A stretch of 64,000 bases of DNA from Gemmatimonadota bacterium (GTDB lineage: Bacteria > Gemmatimonadota > Gemmatimonadetes > Longimicrobiales > Gaopeijiaceae), in contig JAJEBW010000048.1 of NCBI GenBank assembly GCA_022822325.1, positions 124,001-188,000 of the forward strand, given 5' to 3'. The notes under the pieces were generated by a model. The model was not told the DNA's origin. It worked only from the letters and a program-made list of their open reading frames with translations, and did not search any database. Positions 57,460 to 64,000 of this stretch are shown piece after piece (position 1 is the stretch's first letter; every line of letters begins with the position of its first letter). The position numbers were made by a program, and so were the translations under genes.

Positions 57460-58649
57460 CGATGGGTCGACGTCGCGACAAGCGCTTTGGAGTGGGATAC
57501 GGTCGCACCCTGGCTCTGGTGGCCTCCCTCTGCGTTGCGGGGTGCGGCCCGTCGGATTCGACGCACCGGAGTCAGGACCCGGAAGCGGTTGCCGCCGCGC
57601 CAGCGCCCACATTCACCCTGGAGCGCGATCTGACCCTCGCCGGCGCCCCCGATCAGCCCTTTGGCGCGGTGGGTGCGATCGCCACCGATGCCGCTGGCCG
57701 GATCTTCGTGCTCGATGGCATGGCGCGAACCATCCATGTCTTTGCGTCCGATGGCAGCCATCTCCGGGAGATCGGAGGTCGCGGAGAGGGCCCGGGGGAG
57801 TTTTCCCTTGCCGTGGATCTCGCGATCAGCCCCGACTCGCTCCTCTGGGTCACCGATGCCCTGGCGCGGCAGCACCTCGTTTTCGACCTCGACGGCAATG
57901 TTCTGCGTACGGTCGCGCGGCGCTTTACCGGAGGCGGCCAGCCGGGAGATCGTCCCTTTGACGCGGAGGGGCGCTATCTGGACTGGGCGCTCGGGTTCCC
58001 CAACGAGACGGCGACGGCCTACTCGGATATCGTGCAGCATGTGCCGCTGACGCTTCGCCCCGGCGTGGAATCGGATGGAGTCGCACAGTGGGACTCGCTG
58101 CCGCCGGTCGTCTTCCGGCCCCTGCGCGTGGAGGTCGACGGAATGCTGCGCCCGATGACCTTCCTGTCTCCGAGCCTGCGGTTGACGGTGGACGGGCGCG
58201 GCCACATCTGGTTTGCCGATTCGAGCAAGTACCTGGTTTACGGGCGCACCCTCGAGGGGGACACGGTCGGCCGGCTGCGGCTTGACGACGAACCGGCACC
58301 GACGACCGCAGAGGACCGGGCGGAGGTGGAACGGTTCCTCGGGGGCCGTCAACCAGGTTTCCTGGCCCACCTGCCGGACCGCAAACCGTTGATCCGGGGC
58401 CTCGTGGCCGACGGCGCAGGGCGGATCTTCGTGCTGCCCGAGACATCGAGCGTTCGGGCGGGCGAGGCGGTCGACATCTTTGAGGAGGATGGCCGGCACC
58501 TGGGACGCCTTGCCTTCCCCGAACCTCTGTGGATGCCCGCTCTCGGCCGCGGAGTCACGATGCACGCTACTCGGCATCACCTCTACATCGGCGGCGCGAA
58601 TGCAGCGGCGGTCCCGGTTCTGTGGCGTTTCCGGATCGTGGAGTCGTAG
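57441..58649 (+). CDS. 6-bladed beta-propeller lipoprotein
   Basis: A 402-residue protein with signal segment TLALVASLCVAGC (lipobox VAGC). Repeated blade motifs follow, such as GAIATDAAGRIFVLDGMARTIHVF, IGGRGEGPGEF, VDGRGHIWFAD and VADGAGRIFVL. These NHL-like propellers are abundant in Gemmatimonadota-type genomes; the ligand is unknown. Several in-frame ATG codons (57354, 57441, 57456, 57462) lie in the repeat cluster. 57441 is chosen for AAGGAT upstream. Confidence 0.8.
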   Translation: MTRIGMTMGRRRDKRFGVGYGRTLALVASLCVAGCGPSDSTHRSQDPEAVAAAPAPTFTLERDLTLAGAPDQPFGAVGAIATDAAGRIFVLDGMARTIHVFASDGSHLREIGGRGEGPGEFSLAVDLAISPDSLLWVTDALARQHLVFDLDGNVLRTVARRFTGGGQPGDRPFDAEGRYLDWALGFPNETATAYSDIVQHVPLTLRPGVESDGVAQWDSLPPVVFRPLRVEVDGMLRPMTFLSPSLRLTVDGRGHIWFADSSKYLVYGRTLEGDTVGRLRLDDEPAPTTAEDRAEVERFLGGRQPGFLAHLPDRKPLIRGLVADGAGRIFVLPETSSVRAGEAVDIFEEDGRHLGRLAFPEPLWMPALGRGVTMHATRHHLYIGGANAAAVPVLWRFRIVES

Positions 58650-58737
58650 AGCGGCCATCCCGGTGCCGACGAGGAAGACGGCCAGCGCGCGATGCCATCC
58701 GTTGCGCGCCACCGTCGCCGATCCGAACCGCGCCGCC

Positions 58738-58785
58738 GGCGCCTCGCCGCTCCCCAGGCGCACTCGGCATTATCCACGGAACTGC
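58738..58785 (+). repeat. Dispersed palindromic repeat, copy B
   Basis: This 48-bp segment matches the reverse complement of 18358-18404, with two substitutions and one indel. It has the same GCGCCT/AGGCGC inverted repeat. It lies about 90 bases after the propeller gene, so both copies are downstream of a gene end. Confidence 0.8.
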
Positions 58786-58794
58786 GTTGTCCGT

Positions 58795-58824
58795 TTGCCT
58801 TCTCCCGATGAGAGGGCGTAGTAT
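58795..58824 (+). promoter_or_regulatory. Candidate promoter of the polyserine locus
   Basis: TTGCCT (58795-58800), an 18-base spacer and TAGTAT (58819-58824) lie about 180 bases before the polyserine gene. It is the best candidate to drive the 59007-64000 genes. Confidence 0.4.
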
Positions 58825-59006
58825 TCGCATTCTTCTCTTCGTCGCTCCATCCTCCATTTCGCTTGCCTCGCGCTACTCAATGCCCCTGCTTTCCCGCGTC
58901 CCGGGTTGCCGGCAGAGAGGGCCAACGCGATGCCCAGCGAGGTCGAAGACGGGCTGACGGACGAAGGGAAACCCGAAGCGATCGCATATCCTGGAGAATC
59001 CGTGAC

Positions 59007-59882
59007 ATGAAGAATCGTGAGCAACGCGGCGCCACTGTTCCCGATGCGGACCACCACGAGGACCGCCGGGAGTTCCTTCGACTGCTGGCCGGTGGGGTGG
59101 TGGGTGCCGGGATGACGCAACTGGCTGCCTGCACGGATGCCGGCGCCGGTCTCGTTGGTCTTGCCGACGAATCCAGCAGCTCGTCTTCGTCGAGTAGCAG
59201 CAGTTCGTCCTCGTCGAGTTCCAGCTCCAGTTCCTCGTCGAGTAGCAGTTCGTCGAGTAGCAGTAGCAGTTCGTCCTCGTCGAGTAGCAGTAGTTCGTCC
59301 TCGTCTTCGTCGAGTAGCAGTAGTTCGTCGTCGTCCAGTTCCAGTAGCAGTTCGTCGTCGAGTTCCAGCTCTTCGTCGAGTAGCAGCAGCAGTTCCTCTT
59401 CTTCGTCCAGTTCCAGCAGCTCCTCGTCTTCCAGTTCCGGTACGGGTTCCAACCGAGCGCCGGAGCGGGTCGGCAGGATCAGGGACGTGGAGATCGATGT
59501 AAACAGCGTGGCGGAGCTGGATGTCGCCGGGTACTTCCACGACCCGGACGGAGACGAACTTGATTTCGGGGCGGTTTCGTCGGACAGGAAGTGTGTCAGG
59601 GTGACCACGTCCCGCGCGGCCGTGACCCTCGCCGCCCTGGCCGCTGGCGCCGTCAGGGTGACGGTGTTTGCCACCGATCCGGGCGGCCTCTCCGCCTCGC
59701 AGAGATTTGCGGTGACCTCGTCGCCCGGTACGAGCAGCTCATCGTCCAGTTCGAGCAGCAGCTCATCGTCGAGTTCGAGCTCGGGCAGTTCGTCGTCGAG
59801 TTCGAGCAGCGGCGGCTGGGGCGGGGGCCAGACCTCCGGTGGTTCGTCGTCCAGTTCGAGCAGCAGCTCGTCTTCGGGTTGA
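59007..59882 (+). CDS. Tat lipoprotein with 89-residue polyserine tract and Ig/cadherin-like domain
   Basis: A 291-residue exported protein. The Tat motif R20-R-E-F-L-R precedes a hydrophobic segment and lipobox LAAC (Cys42). Residues 56-144 (bases 59172-59438) are 89 uninterrupted serines. A single Ig/cadherin-like domain (about 149-235, NRAPERVGRI to FAVTS) follows. The C-terminus is made of Ser runs of 17, 8 and 11 broken by Gly, with a GGWGGGQ spacer. The domain is a close relative of repeat 2 of the next gene. Probably a cell-surface protein with a flexible or glycosylated stalk. Confidence 0.85.
   Translation: MKNREQRGATVPDADHHEDRREFLRLLAGGVVGAGMTQLAACTDAGAGLVGLADESSSSSSSSSSSSSSSSSSSSSSSSSSSSSSSSSSSSSSSSSSSSSSSSSSSSSSSSSSSSSSSSSSSSSSSSSSSSSSSSSSSSSSSSSGTGSNRAPERVGRIRDVEIDVNSVAELDVAGYFHDPDGDELDFGAVSSDRKCVRVTTSRAAVTLAALAAGAVRVTVFATDPGGLSASQRFAVTSSPGTSSSSSSSSSSSSSSSSSGSSSSSSSSGGWGGGQTSGGSSSSSSSSSSSG
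59172..59438 (+). repeat. Polyserine codon tract
   Basis: 89 consecutive Ser codons using TCC, TCG, TCT, AGC and AGT intermixed, with no TCA. A TCG-AGT-AGC-AGY core recurs at least six times, indicating growth by duplication of multi-codon units rather than slippage of one triplet. Confidence 0.9.
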
Positions 59883-59917
59883 CGCCGGGCGAACCGGTCA
59901 CGCAACGCGCCAGGCAG

Positions 59918-62788
59918 ATGCTTTCGCCATGCGCTCGCCCGGTCCTCTTTGCCGCGGCATTGGTCGCGCTGTCCACCACCGCCTGCGGCGACGGTAGTAC
60001 GGAGCCTGCACCAACTCCGAACCGGGCGCCGTCGCCCAGCGGCTCCATTCCGGCTCAAACCGTTGGCATTGCGGAGACGGCCAGCGTGAACCTGGCCGAC
60101 TATTTCACCGATCCCGACGGAGACGCTCTGACCTACGGCGCAACCAGCTCCGATGTCACGATCGCGTCCGTGGCGGTGTCCGGCAGCGTCCTGACGATCG
60201 CCGGCGTGTCGGCGGGTGCGGCCGCGGTGACGGTGACGGCGACGGACGGGGGCGGTCTCTCGGCCCAACAGAGCTTTGCGGTGACGGTGCCGAACCGGGC
60301 GCCCGAAGCAGTCGGCGCGATCGGGGATCTGGAGATCGAGGTGGACAGCGTGGCGGAGCTGGATGTGGCCTCGTACTTCGCGGATCCGGACGGGGACGAC
60401 CTGGAGTTCGGTGCGGTTTCGTCGGACACGACCCGCGTGCGGGTGGCGGTATCCGGCAGCGTGGTGACGATCGCCGGCGTGTCGGCGGGCGCGGCCGCGG
60501 TGACGGTGACGGCGACGGACGGGGGCGGTCTTTCGGCCCGGCAGAGCTTTGCGGTGACGGTACCGAACCGGGCGCCCGAGGTTGCGGACACGATTCCTCC
60601 GCAGATCCTGACCGTCGGAGAGACACGCTCCTGGGCCGGATCCGACTATTTTGCCGATCCGGACGGCGACCCGTTGACGCTGACGGCCGGCACGACCGAC
60701 CCGTCCATCATTCAGGCCTCGGTGTCCGGCGACGAGTTTGAGATTCTTGCCGCGGCGCCGGGGAGTGCGATGGTGACATTCACGGCAACCGATCCGGAAG
60801 GCCTGAGGGCCAGCCAGAACATCCAGGTGACCTCGGAGAGCCCGAAATCCCTGGGCGTCACCAGTGTCGCACCCGCCACGTTGCTCGAGGGCGCGCAGGC
60901 GACCATCAGCGGCTTCGGGTTCTCCAGCGTTCCCGCCGACAACGAAGTCCTGATCGGCGGCCTGGCCGCGACCGTGACGGCGTCGAGCGAGACGAGCCTT
61001 TCGGTGACCGTCCCGTACAGCGATTGCCTGCCCCCTCGGCGCGCCGAGCTGCGCGTGACCGTGCAGGATGACAGCGACGCCCGACTGGTGGGAGTGAGCC
61101 CGCGGAGAAAGGAGGACATCGATCTTCCCGTGGGCTGGTACCGCTACGCTCATGCGGGCAACGGCTGCCTCCACCTGCCCGAAGATGATGCAGGAGGCGC
61201 ATACGTGATCGGAGTGGTCTCCATCTCGGAAGAGCCGTCCTCTCTGACTCCGGTTGCCGCGACCAGCATCGTCGGAGACCCGACCGTTGTGGCCGAGCGA
61301 TCACTCCTGGCCCACTCGACGCCGCTTCGCGAGGGCGTGGCGCCGGCACCGCGGATCTCGTCGACGAGGGCCGCCATGGCCGCTCCGGCACGCGCCGCCG
61401 CACCTCGCCGGCAGGAGATCGTCGGGGGTCCGCGTGGCTGGGAGCGCCCCCACAACGAGATGATGCACGAGAACCGGGAGATCGTCCGGCGGCTGGGTCG
61501 CGTGGACCCTGCCACAGCGCCTCACGCTCGGGCAACGCTCGCTCTCGCCGTCAGCGACACGGTCACGCTGTTTGCCGGCGGGGAGTCCTGCTCGGCCCGC
61601 GACCAGTTGCGAGCGGTGGTCCGGCAGGTCGGCGACCACACCGTGTGGCTCGACGATGTCGAGAACCCGAACGGGACATTTACGGACTCCGAGCTTGCAG
61701 GACTGGACGCCTTCTACGGAACCCGGGTGAAGGGGGTCCACGACGATTACTTCGGGGGCCTGTCCGATGTCGATGGGAACGGCCGGGTCATGATCGTCAT
61801 GACGAAGCGGGCGAACCAGCAGGACGACCCGGATTCGTTCCTCGGCGGGTGGGTCTGGTTTCGCGACCTCTATCCGTCGGAGGCGTGCGCCACCAGCAAC
61901 CAGGCCGAGATTCTCTTCGGTCGCGCTCCCGATCCCGCGGGCGTCTTCGGACACGCCTGGACGAAGGAGCAGACCCTTGCCTACTACCCGTCGCTCCTGA
62001 CGCACGAGATCGCCCACCTCGCGCAGGGCGCCGCCCTGGTGTTCGAGGAAGCCGACTTCGCCACCTGGGAGATGGAGGGCGGCGCGACGCTCTCCGAACA
62101 GTTGGTGGCCTACGGCCTCTTCGGGCATGGGTCGGGGCAGAACATGGGATACGAGCAGTGGGACGAGGGCCGTGCCTGGTACGAGGAATGGGCGTTCGGG
62201 CTGGCCCGGTTCTTCGGGTGGGACTCGAACGACGCGACCGACGCGCGCCGGATCGCGAACGCGCCGGAGGAGTGCAGCTGGATCGGCAGTCCCGAGGAGG
62301 GGAACGACGGCCCCTGCGCCAACCCCTTCAGGGCGGTGTACGATGTTCCGTCGACGGTGCTCCGGTTCGCGATGGACCGCTGGGGAGACGGATATCCGGG
62401 CGGCGAAAAGGACCTGATGCGTCGCCTCATGCGATCTCCGACAAAGGGGCTTGGGTCGCTGGCGGAGGTCAGCGGCTGGCGGCCCGAACAGATTCTGGCG
62501 GACTTTTACATGTCGCTGTGGATCGACCTGAACGGCTGGGATGCGTTCGGAATGAACACCTGGGACCTCGACGACATCTGGAGCCGCTTCGGGCCGAGCC
62601 AACATCTTCAGCCCTACGAATCGACATCCGCGGGGTTCACGCGCCAGTGGAATGTCCGAGCCGGATCCACGTCATACCTGGAGTGGAGTCCAGACGGTTC
62701 GCGGGGGCCGACGTCCATCCGGGTAACGTCCGCGAACGGCGCTTCCCTTCCGGGTCACATATCGGTATGGGCATTCAGGGTCCGATGA
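59918..62788 (+). CDS. Large lipoprotein with Ig/cadherin-like repeats, TIG domain and HExxH metalloprotease domain
   Basis: A 956-residue secreted lipoprotein (signal segment ending STTAC, Cys23). Three tandem dystroglycan-type Ig/cadherin repeats (about 36-125, 127-216, 218-306) each have a YFxDPDGD motif. An IPT/TIG domain follows (about 312-385). The C-terminal region has T-H-E-I-A-H (HExxH 696-700) and Glu720 in WEMEGGATLSEQ, like gluzincins of the M30/M6 kind. Likely a surface protease. ATG at 59918 is the first that gives a signal peptide. It follows the polyserine gene by 35 bases. Confidence 0.85.
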   Translation: MLSPCARPVLFAAALVALSTTACGDGSTEPAPTPNRAPSPSGSIPAQTVGIAETASVNLADYFTDPDGDALTYGATSSDVTIASVAVSGSVLTIAGVSAGAAAVTVTATDGGGLSAQQSFAVTVPNRAPEAVGAIGDLEIEVDSVAELDVASYFADPDGDDLEFGAVSSDTTRVRVAVSGSVVTIAGVSAGAAAVTVTATDGGGLSARQSFAVTVPNRAPEVADTIPPQILTVGETRSWAGSDYFADPDGDPLTLTAGTTDPSIIQASVSGDEFEILAAAPGSAMVTFTATDPEGLRASQNIQVTSESPKSLGVTSVAPATLLEGAQATISGFGFSSVPADNEVLIGGLAATVTASSETSLSVTVPYSDCLPPRRAELRVTVQDDSDARLVGVSPRRKEDIDLPVGWYRYAHAGNGCLHLPEDDAGGAYVIGVVSISEEPSSLTPVAATSIVGDPTVVAERSLLAHSTPLREGVAPAPRISSTRAAMAAPARAAAPRRQEIVGGPRGWERPHNEMMHENREIVRRLGRVDPATAPHARATLALAVSDTVTLFAGGESCSARDQLRAVVRQVGDHTVWLDDVENPNGTFTDSELAGLDAFYGTRVKGVHDDYFGGLSDVDGNGRVMIVMTKRANQQDDPDSFLGGWVWFRDLYPSEACATSNQAEILFGRAPDPAGVFGHAWTKEQTLAYYPSLLTHEIAHLAQGAALVFEEADFATWEMEGGATLSEQLVAYGLFGHGSGQNMGYEQWDEGRAWYEEWAFGLARFFGWDSNDATDARRIANAPEECSWIGSPEEGNDGPCANPFRAVYDVPSTVLRFAMDRWGDGYPGGEKDLMRRLMRSPTKGLGSLAEVSGWRPEQILADFYMSLWIDLNGWDAFGMNTWDLDDIWSRFGPSQHLQPYESTSAGFTRQWNVRAGSTSYLEWSPDGSRGPTSIRVTSANGASLPGHISVWAFRVR
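60194..60579 (+). repeat. 273-bp-period near-identical repeat inside the protease gene
   Basis: Segments 60194-60306 and 60467-60579 (113 bp each) differ at only about five positions. They correspond to the second half of Ig repeats 1 and 2. The period of 273 bp is 91 codons, so the frame is kept. This points to a recent duplication or gene conversion. Confidence 0.85.
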
Positions 62789-62801
62789 ACACAGCCGGCC
62801 G

Positions 62802-63782
62802 ATGCGAAAGCTGATCCTCAGGAACTTTCAGTCGCCAGGTGACATCGTGATGCTCACCGCTGCGGTCCGCGACCTGCACAGGTGCTACCCCGAACGCTTC
62901 CTGACCGATGTCCGCACTTCCTGTCCCGCACTCTGGGAGAACAACCCGCACCTGGTTCCGTTGAGTGAGGACGATCCCGACGTGGAAGTCCTGGACTGCC
63001 ACTACCCGCTGATCCACCGGAGCAACCAGACGCCATATCACTTCCTGCACGGCTTCATCCACTACCTGAACGAGAAGCTGGGACTACGGATCGAGCCGAG
63101 CGCCTTCAGGGGAGACATTCACATCTCGGATGGCGAGAAGGATTGGTTCTCCCGCGTGCAGGAGGCTCACGGGGAATCCACCCCGTTCTGGATGATCGAC
63201 GCCGGAGGCAAGTTCGACTACACGATCAAGTGGTGGGATCCGAAACGGTACCAGGCGGTCGTCGATCATTTTCGGGGCCGCGTGGAGTTCGTCCAGATCG
63301 GCGAGTTCGGACATCACCATCCGCCGCTCGATGGCGTCGTCGACATGAGGGGGCAAACCACCCTTCGCCAACTCGTGCGCCTCATGTATCACGCCCAGGG
63401 CGTCGTGACGCCGATCAGTCTGCCGATGCACCTGGCCGCAGCGGTGGAGGTGAAGCCGGGCATGCCGAAGAACCGTCCGTGCGTTGTCGTGGCCGGAGGG
63501 CGCGAGCCGCCTCACTGGACCGCCTACCCGCACCACCAGTTCATCCACACCGTCGGTGCGCTCAGCTGCTGCGACAACGGGGGGTGCTGGAAGTCGCGAA
63601 CGGTCCCGCTGGGCGATGGAGACTACAAGGACGGGCCCGACGAACTCTGCGTGGATGTGGTGGGCAAGCTGCCCCGTTGCATGGACATGATTACGGCGGA
63701 AGAGGTGATCGGCCGGATCCAGTGGTACTTCGATGGCGGAGCGATCGAATACCTGAGTCCTCCCCGGTCCCGGGCAGAATAG
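62802..63782 (+). CDS. GT9 (ADP-heptosyltransferase-like) glycosyltransferase with cysteine cluster
   Basis: A 326-residue GT-B enzyme. The N-terminus RNFQSPGDIVMLTAAVRDLH is the GT9 heptosyltransferase start. The C-terminal half has VTPISLPMHLAAA in the sugar-nucleotide region. Five Cys occur late: C256, C257, C262, C283 and C293 (SCCDNGGCW, LCVDV, PRCMD). Autotransporter heptosyltransferases (TibC/Aah, same GT9 superfamily) bind iron through four late cysteines and O-heptosylate serines. A similar metal site is plausible here. Cytoplasmic, no signal peptide. Context next to a polyserine protein suggests protein glycosylation rather than LPS. Confidence 0.8.
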   Translation: MRKLILRNFQSPGDIVMLTAAVRDLHRCYPERFLTDVRTSCPALWENNPHLVPLSEDDPDVEVLDCHYPLIHRSNQTPYHFLHGFIHYLNEKLGLRIEPSAFRGDIHISDGEKDWFSRVQEAHGESTPFWMIDAGGKFDYTIKWWDPKRYQAVVDHFRGRVEFVQIGEFGHHHPPLDGVVDMRGQTTLRQLVRLMYHAQGVVTPISLPMHLAAAVEVKPGMPKNRPCVVVAGGREPPHWTAYPHHQFIHTVGALSCCDNGGCWKSRTVPLGDGDYKDGPDELCVDVVGKLPRCMDMITAEEVIGRIQWYFDGGAIEYLSPPRSRAE

Positions 63783-63826
63783 GCAGCGGGAGCGGATACT
63801 CGTTTGCGAACTGCGGCGGTGAGAGC

Positions 63827-64000
63827 ATGCCCGAACACCTTCCTCCCGTAGAGCACTTCCTCGGAGAGACGTTTCCGTTCTTTCCGAACCACGAAATCGT
63901 GGAGCACATCGGCTCGGGGGCAATCGGCCGCGTGTATCGTGCACATGCGGCCAAACTGGATGGTGACCTGGCCTTCAAGTTCGTACCAATTGAGCATCTG
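63827..64000 (+). CDS. Serine/threonine protein kinase, 3' partial
   Basis: The first 58 residues run off the window. They contain the glycine-rich loop GSGAIGRVY (29-37) and the catalytic Lys51 in AFKF, as in Hanks-type bacterial kinases. It starts 44 bases after the glycosyltransferase, with GGTGAGAG upstream. Whether it has transmembrane or sensor domains cannot be seen. Confidence 0.85.
   Translation, partial: MPEHLPPVEHFLGETFPFFPNHEIVEHIGSGAIGRVYRAHAAKLDGDLAFKFVPIEHL

Follow-up and report, generated by a model that had tools for sequence, protein, structure and literature searches.

A divergent GT9-fold glycosyltransferase paired with polyserine proteins in a Gemmatimonadota genome and its relatives in other bacteria and viral contigs

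The window analysed here is a 64,000-nucleotide stretch of a Gemmatimonadota genome (G000:C44:124001-188000; assembly of 3.48 Mb in 49 contigs) that ends in four genes, A to D, two of which are our main subject: gene A, encoding a polyserine protein, and gene C, encoding a divergent glycosyltransferase of the GT9 fold. Sequence comparison gives good support to the pairing of a GT9-type enzyme with a polyserine protein, and this pairing reaches beyond what the first-pass annotation of this DNA had proposed. The coupling outside the autotransporter setting that it suggested is supported by co-occurrence within the family, across phyla and in viral contigs. We consider it probable that A and C make up a pair dedicated to protein O-glycosylation, the product of which would be a mucin-like surface stalk.

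All four genes lie on the forward strand, with intergenic gaps of 35, 13 and 44 bp (Table 1). Coordinates and a codon count bear out the first description of four same-strand genes led by a protein with 89 consecutive serines and a Tat-type lipoprotein signal; the resemblance of the start of gene A, HEDRREFLRLLAGGVVGAGMTQLAAC, to a twin-arginine lipoprotein signal was judged by eye alone. The serine run is encoded by 27 TCG, 23 AGT, 17 AGC, 16 TCC and 6 TCT codons, and because the codons are mixed and 19 of the 88 adjacent pairs are identical, a simple trinucleotide repeat does not describe the run, which does contain imperfect repeats 15-45 bp long. The promoter candidate that had been placed ahead of the operon was not recovered, a sigma-70-type scan of positions 58500-59100 upstream of A having found none.

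Both copies of C in this genome (the second is described below) pass the cut-off of the GT9 Pfam model PF01075, the window's copy with 23.9 bits against a cut-off of 22 over an alignment of only 38 residues, and its four late cysteines are conserved, in agreement with its original labelling as a GT9-like enzyme with a late cysteine cluster. The predicted structure is a GT-B fold as in known GT9 enzymes and heptosyltransferases, and residues 1-316 of the model align with residues 96-396 of TibC. The more specific assignment to the TibC/Aah kind is not supported as it was stated: the TibC/Aah model TIGR04414 had no match in this genome at E≤0.001, the Aah/TibC model was absent from the 11 families matched by any of 42 C-family members at E≤1, and the fold is matched equally well by lipopolysaccharide (LPS) heptosyltransferases and by TibC. 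C differs from the BAHT family (TibC/Aah; PDB 4RAP, 4RB4) in that its 326 residues hold no counterpart of the N-terminal barrel of about 97 residues (a beta-barrel at residues 1-97 of TibC; PMC4358343), in the different spacing of its four conserved cysteines from the four of the BAHT iron finger, and in its partner, a Tat-type lipoprotein bearing a serine homopolymer in place of an autotransporter. It also scores far below the curated cut-offs for the LPS heptosyltransferases HepII/WaaF and WaaC (PDB 1PSW, 2H1H, 6DFE), with 21.5 against 170.2 bits for TIGR02201 and 15.4 against 134.6 bits for TIGR02195, TIGR02193 not being among the models matched. Its context is one of polyserine proteins and not of LPS core operons, and it has a conserved four-cysteine region, which WaaC and WaaF are not known to have. 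In sequence searches of the PDB the C-family profile reached HepII at E 0.26, and the single C sequence found no GT9 enzyme among its matches. The family alignment from which Asp14 and the cysteines were read left out two of 80 viral enzymes as too short.

The pair occurs at two loci in this one genome. On contig C36 a paralogue of C, 84% identical, is followed directly by a second polyserine protein of 131 aa (L004:9006-9401) with a run of 52 serines and a homologous signal; neither the peptidase part of B nor D had a match in the 17 kb around this copy. A comparable short form in the related genome G028 consists of C and a 91-aa polyserine protein (L027, on a contig shared with L050), and both short proteins contain little beyond a signal, an acidic spacer and serines. 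Because the second copy and G028 show just these two genes, the minimal unit is C plus a polyserine protein, and the earlier view of all four genes as one system has to be narrowed, B and D not being part of the core. Beside the second polyserine gene lies an ORF (L004:8428-9009) that by eye resembles part of a restriction-type enzyme.

A search for C in 121 genomes of the family gave a match at E≤0.001 in 14 of them. Two, G026 (E 5.8e-5) and G032 (E 4.5e-4), have only short, weak matches and were not counted as C-bearing; among the remaining 12 genomes, the copy of G001 is truncated where its contig stops. A profile built from eight N-termini of A (A3) found 12 places in 11 genomes at E≤1e-25, with the next best match at E 2.6e-4, and among the 30 A-profile loci fetched the 11 strong ones held serine runs of 28-109 residues and the 19 weak ones runs of at most 6. 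Both genes are present in ten genomes, C alone in two, A alone in one and neither in 108 (Fisher 5.6e-12, a nominal value because the genomes are related). As for the unpaired cases, the contig of G003 (C only) stops inside B, G015 (C only) has an inverted duplicate at the start of B that resembles an assembly fault, and in G005 (A only) no more than 0.7 kb separates A from the end of its contig, towards which it is oriented. A and C share a contig in seven of the ten genomes having both, and in six all four genes stand on one stretch (L003, L019, L020, L021, L023, L025). D follows C in ten family loci with enough flank, and the genes past D vary between genome groups, as expected if the block has moved. 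L040 and L041, whose records bear the titles Gammaproteobacteria and Bryobacterales, carry a C that is 94% identical to that of the window, through either misbinning or transfer.

A wider scan of genome contigs for C returned 55 loci, 12 of them from the family or near-identical to it (L040-L050, L094) and 43 distant (L051-L093). Around the distant enzymes, serine runs of at least 8 number 29 in 78,754 bp within 1 kb of C (12 loci) and 7 in 399,351 bp farther away (6 loci). A tree of 42 enzymes has one branch (SH-aLRT 99) of 15 rows from Gemmatimonadota, Acidobacteriota and one unassigned metagenome-assembled genome, and in all 15 a serine-rich protein with an RRxFL-type signal, its twin-arginine motif read by eye, stands beside C or upstream of it; it shares the strand of C in every row but L051. 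Partner labels were set by hand ahead of the tree, with one tract partly masked, and rows short of flank were left out of the label counts (8 of 42 here and 9 of 120 in the larger tree below); in L041 the partner lies 3.2 kb upstream of C, across a stretch not checked for B. Beyond this clade, L058, L062, L063 and L067 have serine-rich neighbours of very different build, and at several other loci no such neighbour is seen. A polyserine label at L074 was set aside, as the 15-bp repeat beside C there (L074:1-387) can be read either as polyserine or, on the other strand, as MRKNS repeats.

The GT9 subfamily of C is also widespread in viral contigs, often near polyserine ORFs (for example in L162, L175 and L204). 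The family profile matched 82 stretches in IMG/VR, of which 80 were kept (L141-L220); they are given without hosts and were taken for phages. Serine runs of at least 8 were found in 30 of these 80 loci versus 1 of 80 random viral loci (Fisher 1.3e-9), which were drawn with an arbitrary 16-mer (mean G+C 0.48 for the enzyme loci and 0.50 for the random ones; 823,609 and 729,722 bp in total) and none of which held the enzyme at E≤1e-5. Looser criteria give a smaller contrast, from 34 versus 3 loci for runs of 7 to 41 versus 20 for runs of 6 and 44 versus 18 for 12 serines in 24 residues. A near-versus-far comparison within the viral loci (runs of at least 8: 42 over 156,901 bp nearby and 111 over 591,165 bp farther off) was uninformative because the tracts spread across neighbouring genes, and the random baseline was used instead. 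When 78 of the viral enzymes are clustered at 70% identity, 17 of the 54 clusters hold a locus with such a run.

One viral gene module has serine runs of at least 7 in all ten loci where the enzyme is present and in none of four loci of a distant version (37-38% identity over part) from which the enzyme is absent. A query with a viral head protein led to enzyme and tract together in L229, L232 and L233; in L230 the tract is present and the contig stops shortly beyond it, while L231 is a truncated view of the L181 contig, which has both. The tracts are frequently at ORF ends, and in L175 an ORF that ends in a tract sits between a major head protein and the enzyme. PHROGs matched just two of ten viral proteins, the major head protein and a weak match of unknown function, so that the label 'virion protein' rests on position. 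Nothing in the collections of phage and plasmid records matched P0002, and no plasmid record matched the Caballeronia relative. In a 120-member tree (FastTree, midpoint root) most deep branches are viral and cellular rows are nested among them, which hints at a viral origin of the enzyme family, a point that such a tree cannot show. In L059 and L068, two of the 43 distant loci of the genome-contig scan, some 1.2 kb at most separates the enzyme from a protein with the eCIS core domain (E 6e-30 and 9.5e-30). Also encoded are, in L068, a DUF6519 protein carrying a serine-rich insert and, in L059, a serine-rich protein that is tail-sheath-like by eye and has no Pfam hit.

In the mechanism that we propose, C would act on A before A leaves the cytosol, taking a sugar from a nucleotide-linked donor (perhaps ADP-heptose) and attaching it to the hydroxyl groups of the serines in the polyserine tract. 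The modified protein would then be exported by its twin-arginine lipoprotein-like signal and anchored through a lipidated cysteine, which would yield a heavily glycosylated, extended stalk at the cell surface. The Tat pathway transports proteins already finished in the cytosol and, since C has no evident signal peptide and its partners in the 15-row clade are Tat-type, modification before export would be the natural order. Relatives of C may act likewise on other polyserine proteins, including those beside viral head genes. Gram-positive serine-rich repeat glycoproteins also have long serine-rich tracts that are glycosylated in the cytosol and then exported, with other glycosyltransferases and by an accessory Sec route; the A/C pair differs in its GT9 fold and Tat-type signal. 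TibC, which has this fold, adds heptose to serines and not to threonines, synthetic peptides included (PMC4358343).

By its fold, C could plausibly use ADP-heptose as donor, and the statement that heptose is the sugar is unsupported in the form in which it was first made. This genome has a gmhA match on contig C2 and both hldE-type domains on C28 (E 3.5e-52 to 5.7e-55), all under the curated cut-offs; four C-positive genomes of genus g2 have no gmhA match, the hldE-type matches of G028 are weak, and the adenylyltransferase domain is present in 81 of the 121 genomes. Close to the operon, some 4 kb separates D from gmhB and hldA in G006, G007 and G029, and in G001, which has another hldA on contig C37, a 5.5-kb contig (L028, G001:C63) holds gmhB, hldA, hldC, the end of C and D, with hldA about 0.1 kb from D. 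As a block gmhB-hldA-x1-x2-creatininase exists apart from the operon in sister genomes (L136 in G009 and L138 in G008, neither of which has a C match, and L137 on contig C19 of G005, which carries A on a different contig), gmhB-hldA proximity is insertion-site synteny in three of the four genomes, G006, G007 and G029, and was not counted there as evidence.

Several other explanations of the pairing can be weighed against the same data. Were the polyserine an unmodified flexible spacer, as has been proposed for the polyserine linkers of secreted polysaccharidases, C would work on LPS or another envelope glycan made together with A; this accords with its weak matches to LPS heptosyltransferase models and good matches to their folds, but does not predict that C tracks serine tracts across phyla and in viral contigs, or that a two-gene short form carries a nearly bare tract, and we regard it as unlikely. 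Bacterial polyserine linkers are reported (PMC2386152, PMC2699552), and the long serine runs of carbohydrate-degrading enzymes of Saccharophagus and Teredinibacter, which like that of A are in exported proteins, are described as linkers. It seems less likely still that C modifies another region of its partner, or extends a sugar set by another enzyme, with the tract serving for recognition or spacing. TibC does recognise the beta-helix of its substrate (PMC4358343), and several relatives of C have other enzymes encoded next to them or joined to them in one protein (mostly by eye), but serine-rich tracts are nearly all that the partners share, and the 131- and 91-aa short forms are almost bare.

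D, being kinase-like, might instead phosphorylate the polyserine, phosphate then being the main modification and C an accessory. Its position after C in ten family loci would suit this, as would the kinase-like cluster seen by eye near C in 14 of the 43 distant loci; D is seen at neither short-form locus, however, those 14 loci include L063, L065 and L067 and no Acidobacterial polyserine locus, and the HRD and DFG motifs read, by eye, HGD and DFK in D, all of which makes the proposal very improbable. Finally, that the tracts are functionless slippage products kept near C through shared descent would fit the imperfect short repeats and the range of lengths in relatives (28-109), yet both serine codon families are mixed in the tract, the partners beyond the main clade are built differently and the random viral baseline is 1 in 80; we give this very little credence.

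As for A and C being a dedicated glycosylation pair, several observations weigh against it. The two genes are on separate contigs in three of the ten genomes with both (G001, G006, G012), the genomes of the family test are related to one another, and serine tracts elsewhere in genomes lacking C were left out of the counts. Only 7 of the 12 genomes that carry C have strong matches to gmhA and both hldE-type models. The 80 random viral loci were unmatched for gene neighbourhood, and nine of the ten enzyme-bearing module loci are contigs already among the 80. A serine run of at least 8 lies within 1 kb of C in only 12 of the 43 distant cellular loci, and none was found in the stretch read in 50 of the 80 viral loci or in several Verrucomicrobial loci. 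Part of the C family thus has other partners, and the enzyme without a serine-rich neighbour, which the first-pass annotation had named as telling against the coupling, does exist in part of the wider family. Taken together, the data leave about even chances for a broader reading, in which polyserine would serve as a portable tag for glycosylation, recognised by a single ancient GT9 subfamily that bears a four-cysteine finger: phages would tag virion proteins, contractile-injection-type clusters their particles and bacteria their Tat-exported lipoprotein stalks, the pair moving as a unit between viruses and cells.

B and D would be accessories of the long form of the operon, B with immunoglobulin (Ig)-like repeats and a peptidase-like region and D with kinase-like features. 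The initial picture of B as a repeat-bearing lipoprotein with an HExxH domain stands: Big_9 (three stretches), TIG and He_PIG pass their Pfam cut-offs, and HEIAH falls within residues 587-729, which are similar to the neutral metalloprotease lugdulysin (phmmer E 7.8e-6) and have no Pfam match at E≤0.01. D, called a kinase from the outset, matches Pkinase at E 3e-11. The kinase-like cluster near C in the distant loci is often accompanied by a sigma-factor-like gene, in six loci. Four Verrucomicrobial loci have small ORFs that contain G[FY]SPKP together with other SP motifs and stop 89-170 bp ahead of C, and the motif G[FYT]SPKP occurs nowhere else in the 43; these ORFs are a possible second type of acceptor, a lead only, because the motif was picked after viewing those loci, which are close in the tree.

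Table 1. Coordinates of the genes and features discussed (window positions unless a locus is named)
Feature	Position	Strand	Basis or remark
Gene A, polyserine protein with Tat-type lipoprotein signal, 291 aa	59007..59882	+	homologous N-termini in 8 rows of profile A3
Signal of A to lipobox-like Cys; RR codons 20-21, Cys codon 42	59007..59132	+	by eye; conserved in A3
89-Ser run, proposed acceptor	59172..59438	+	read from sequence
Ig-like module of A, similar to B repeats	59451..59714	+	tblastn of A against relatives, residues 149-236
Ser/Gly-rich tail of A	59718..59879	+	read from sequence
Gene B, lipoprotein-like, Ig-like repeats, TIG domain and HExxH region, 956 aa	59918..62788	+	Pfam, phmmer
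HEIAH motif of B	62003..62017	+	both His and Glu invariant in 10 relatives
Gene C, divergent GT9-fold glycosyltransferase, 326 aa	62802..63782	+	Pfam, predicted fold
Asp14 of C, candidate catalytic base (putative role)	62841..62843	+	D in 120/120 aligned members
Four-cysteine region of C: C256, C262, C283, C293	63567..63680	+	conserved in family alignment
Start of gene D, kinase-like, 275 aa, runs past window edge	63827..64000	+	full gene L003:5027-5851
Enzyme relatives near eCIS core proteins	L059:4088-6742, L068:5522-7960		
SPKP-type small ORFs	L065:4445-4690, L070:6990-7238, L072:7654-7866, L075:7643-7831		

No description of a GT9-polyserine pair was found among the top-ranked literature matches (most subscription journals and bioRxiv preprints being outside the coverage of that search). 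Long serine homopolymers in bacterial and viral proteins are commonly attributed to spacers, and because the enzyme travels with them their purpose becomes directly testable. If the reading proposed here is true, this would be an unusually small protein-glycosylation system made up of one enzyme, one homopolymer tag and Tat export, and serine O-glycosylation by the GT9 fold would extend from autotransporters to lipoproteins, virions and injection-type particles. Together with its counterparts in other bacteria and in viral contigs, the pair in this genome suggests a previously undescribed way in which proteins may be coated with sugar.

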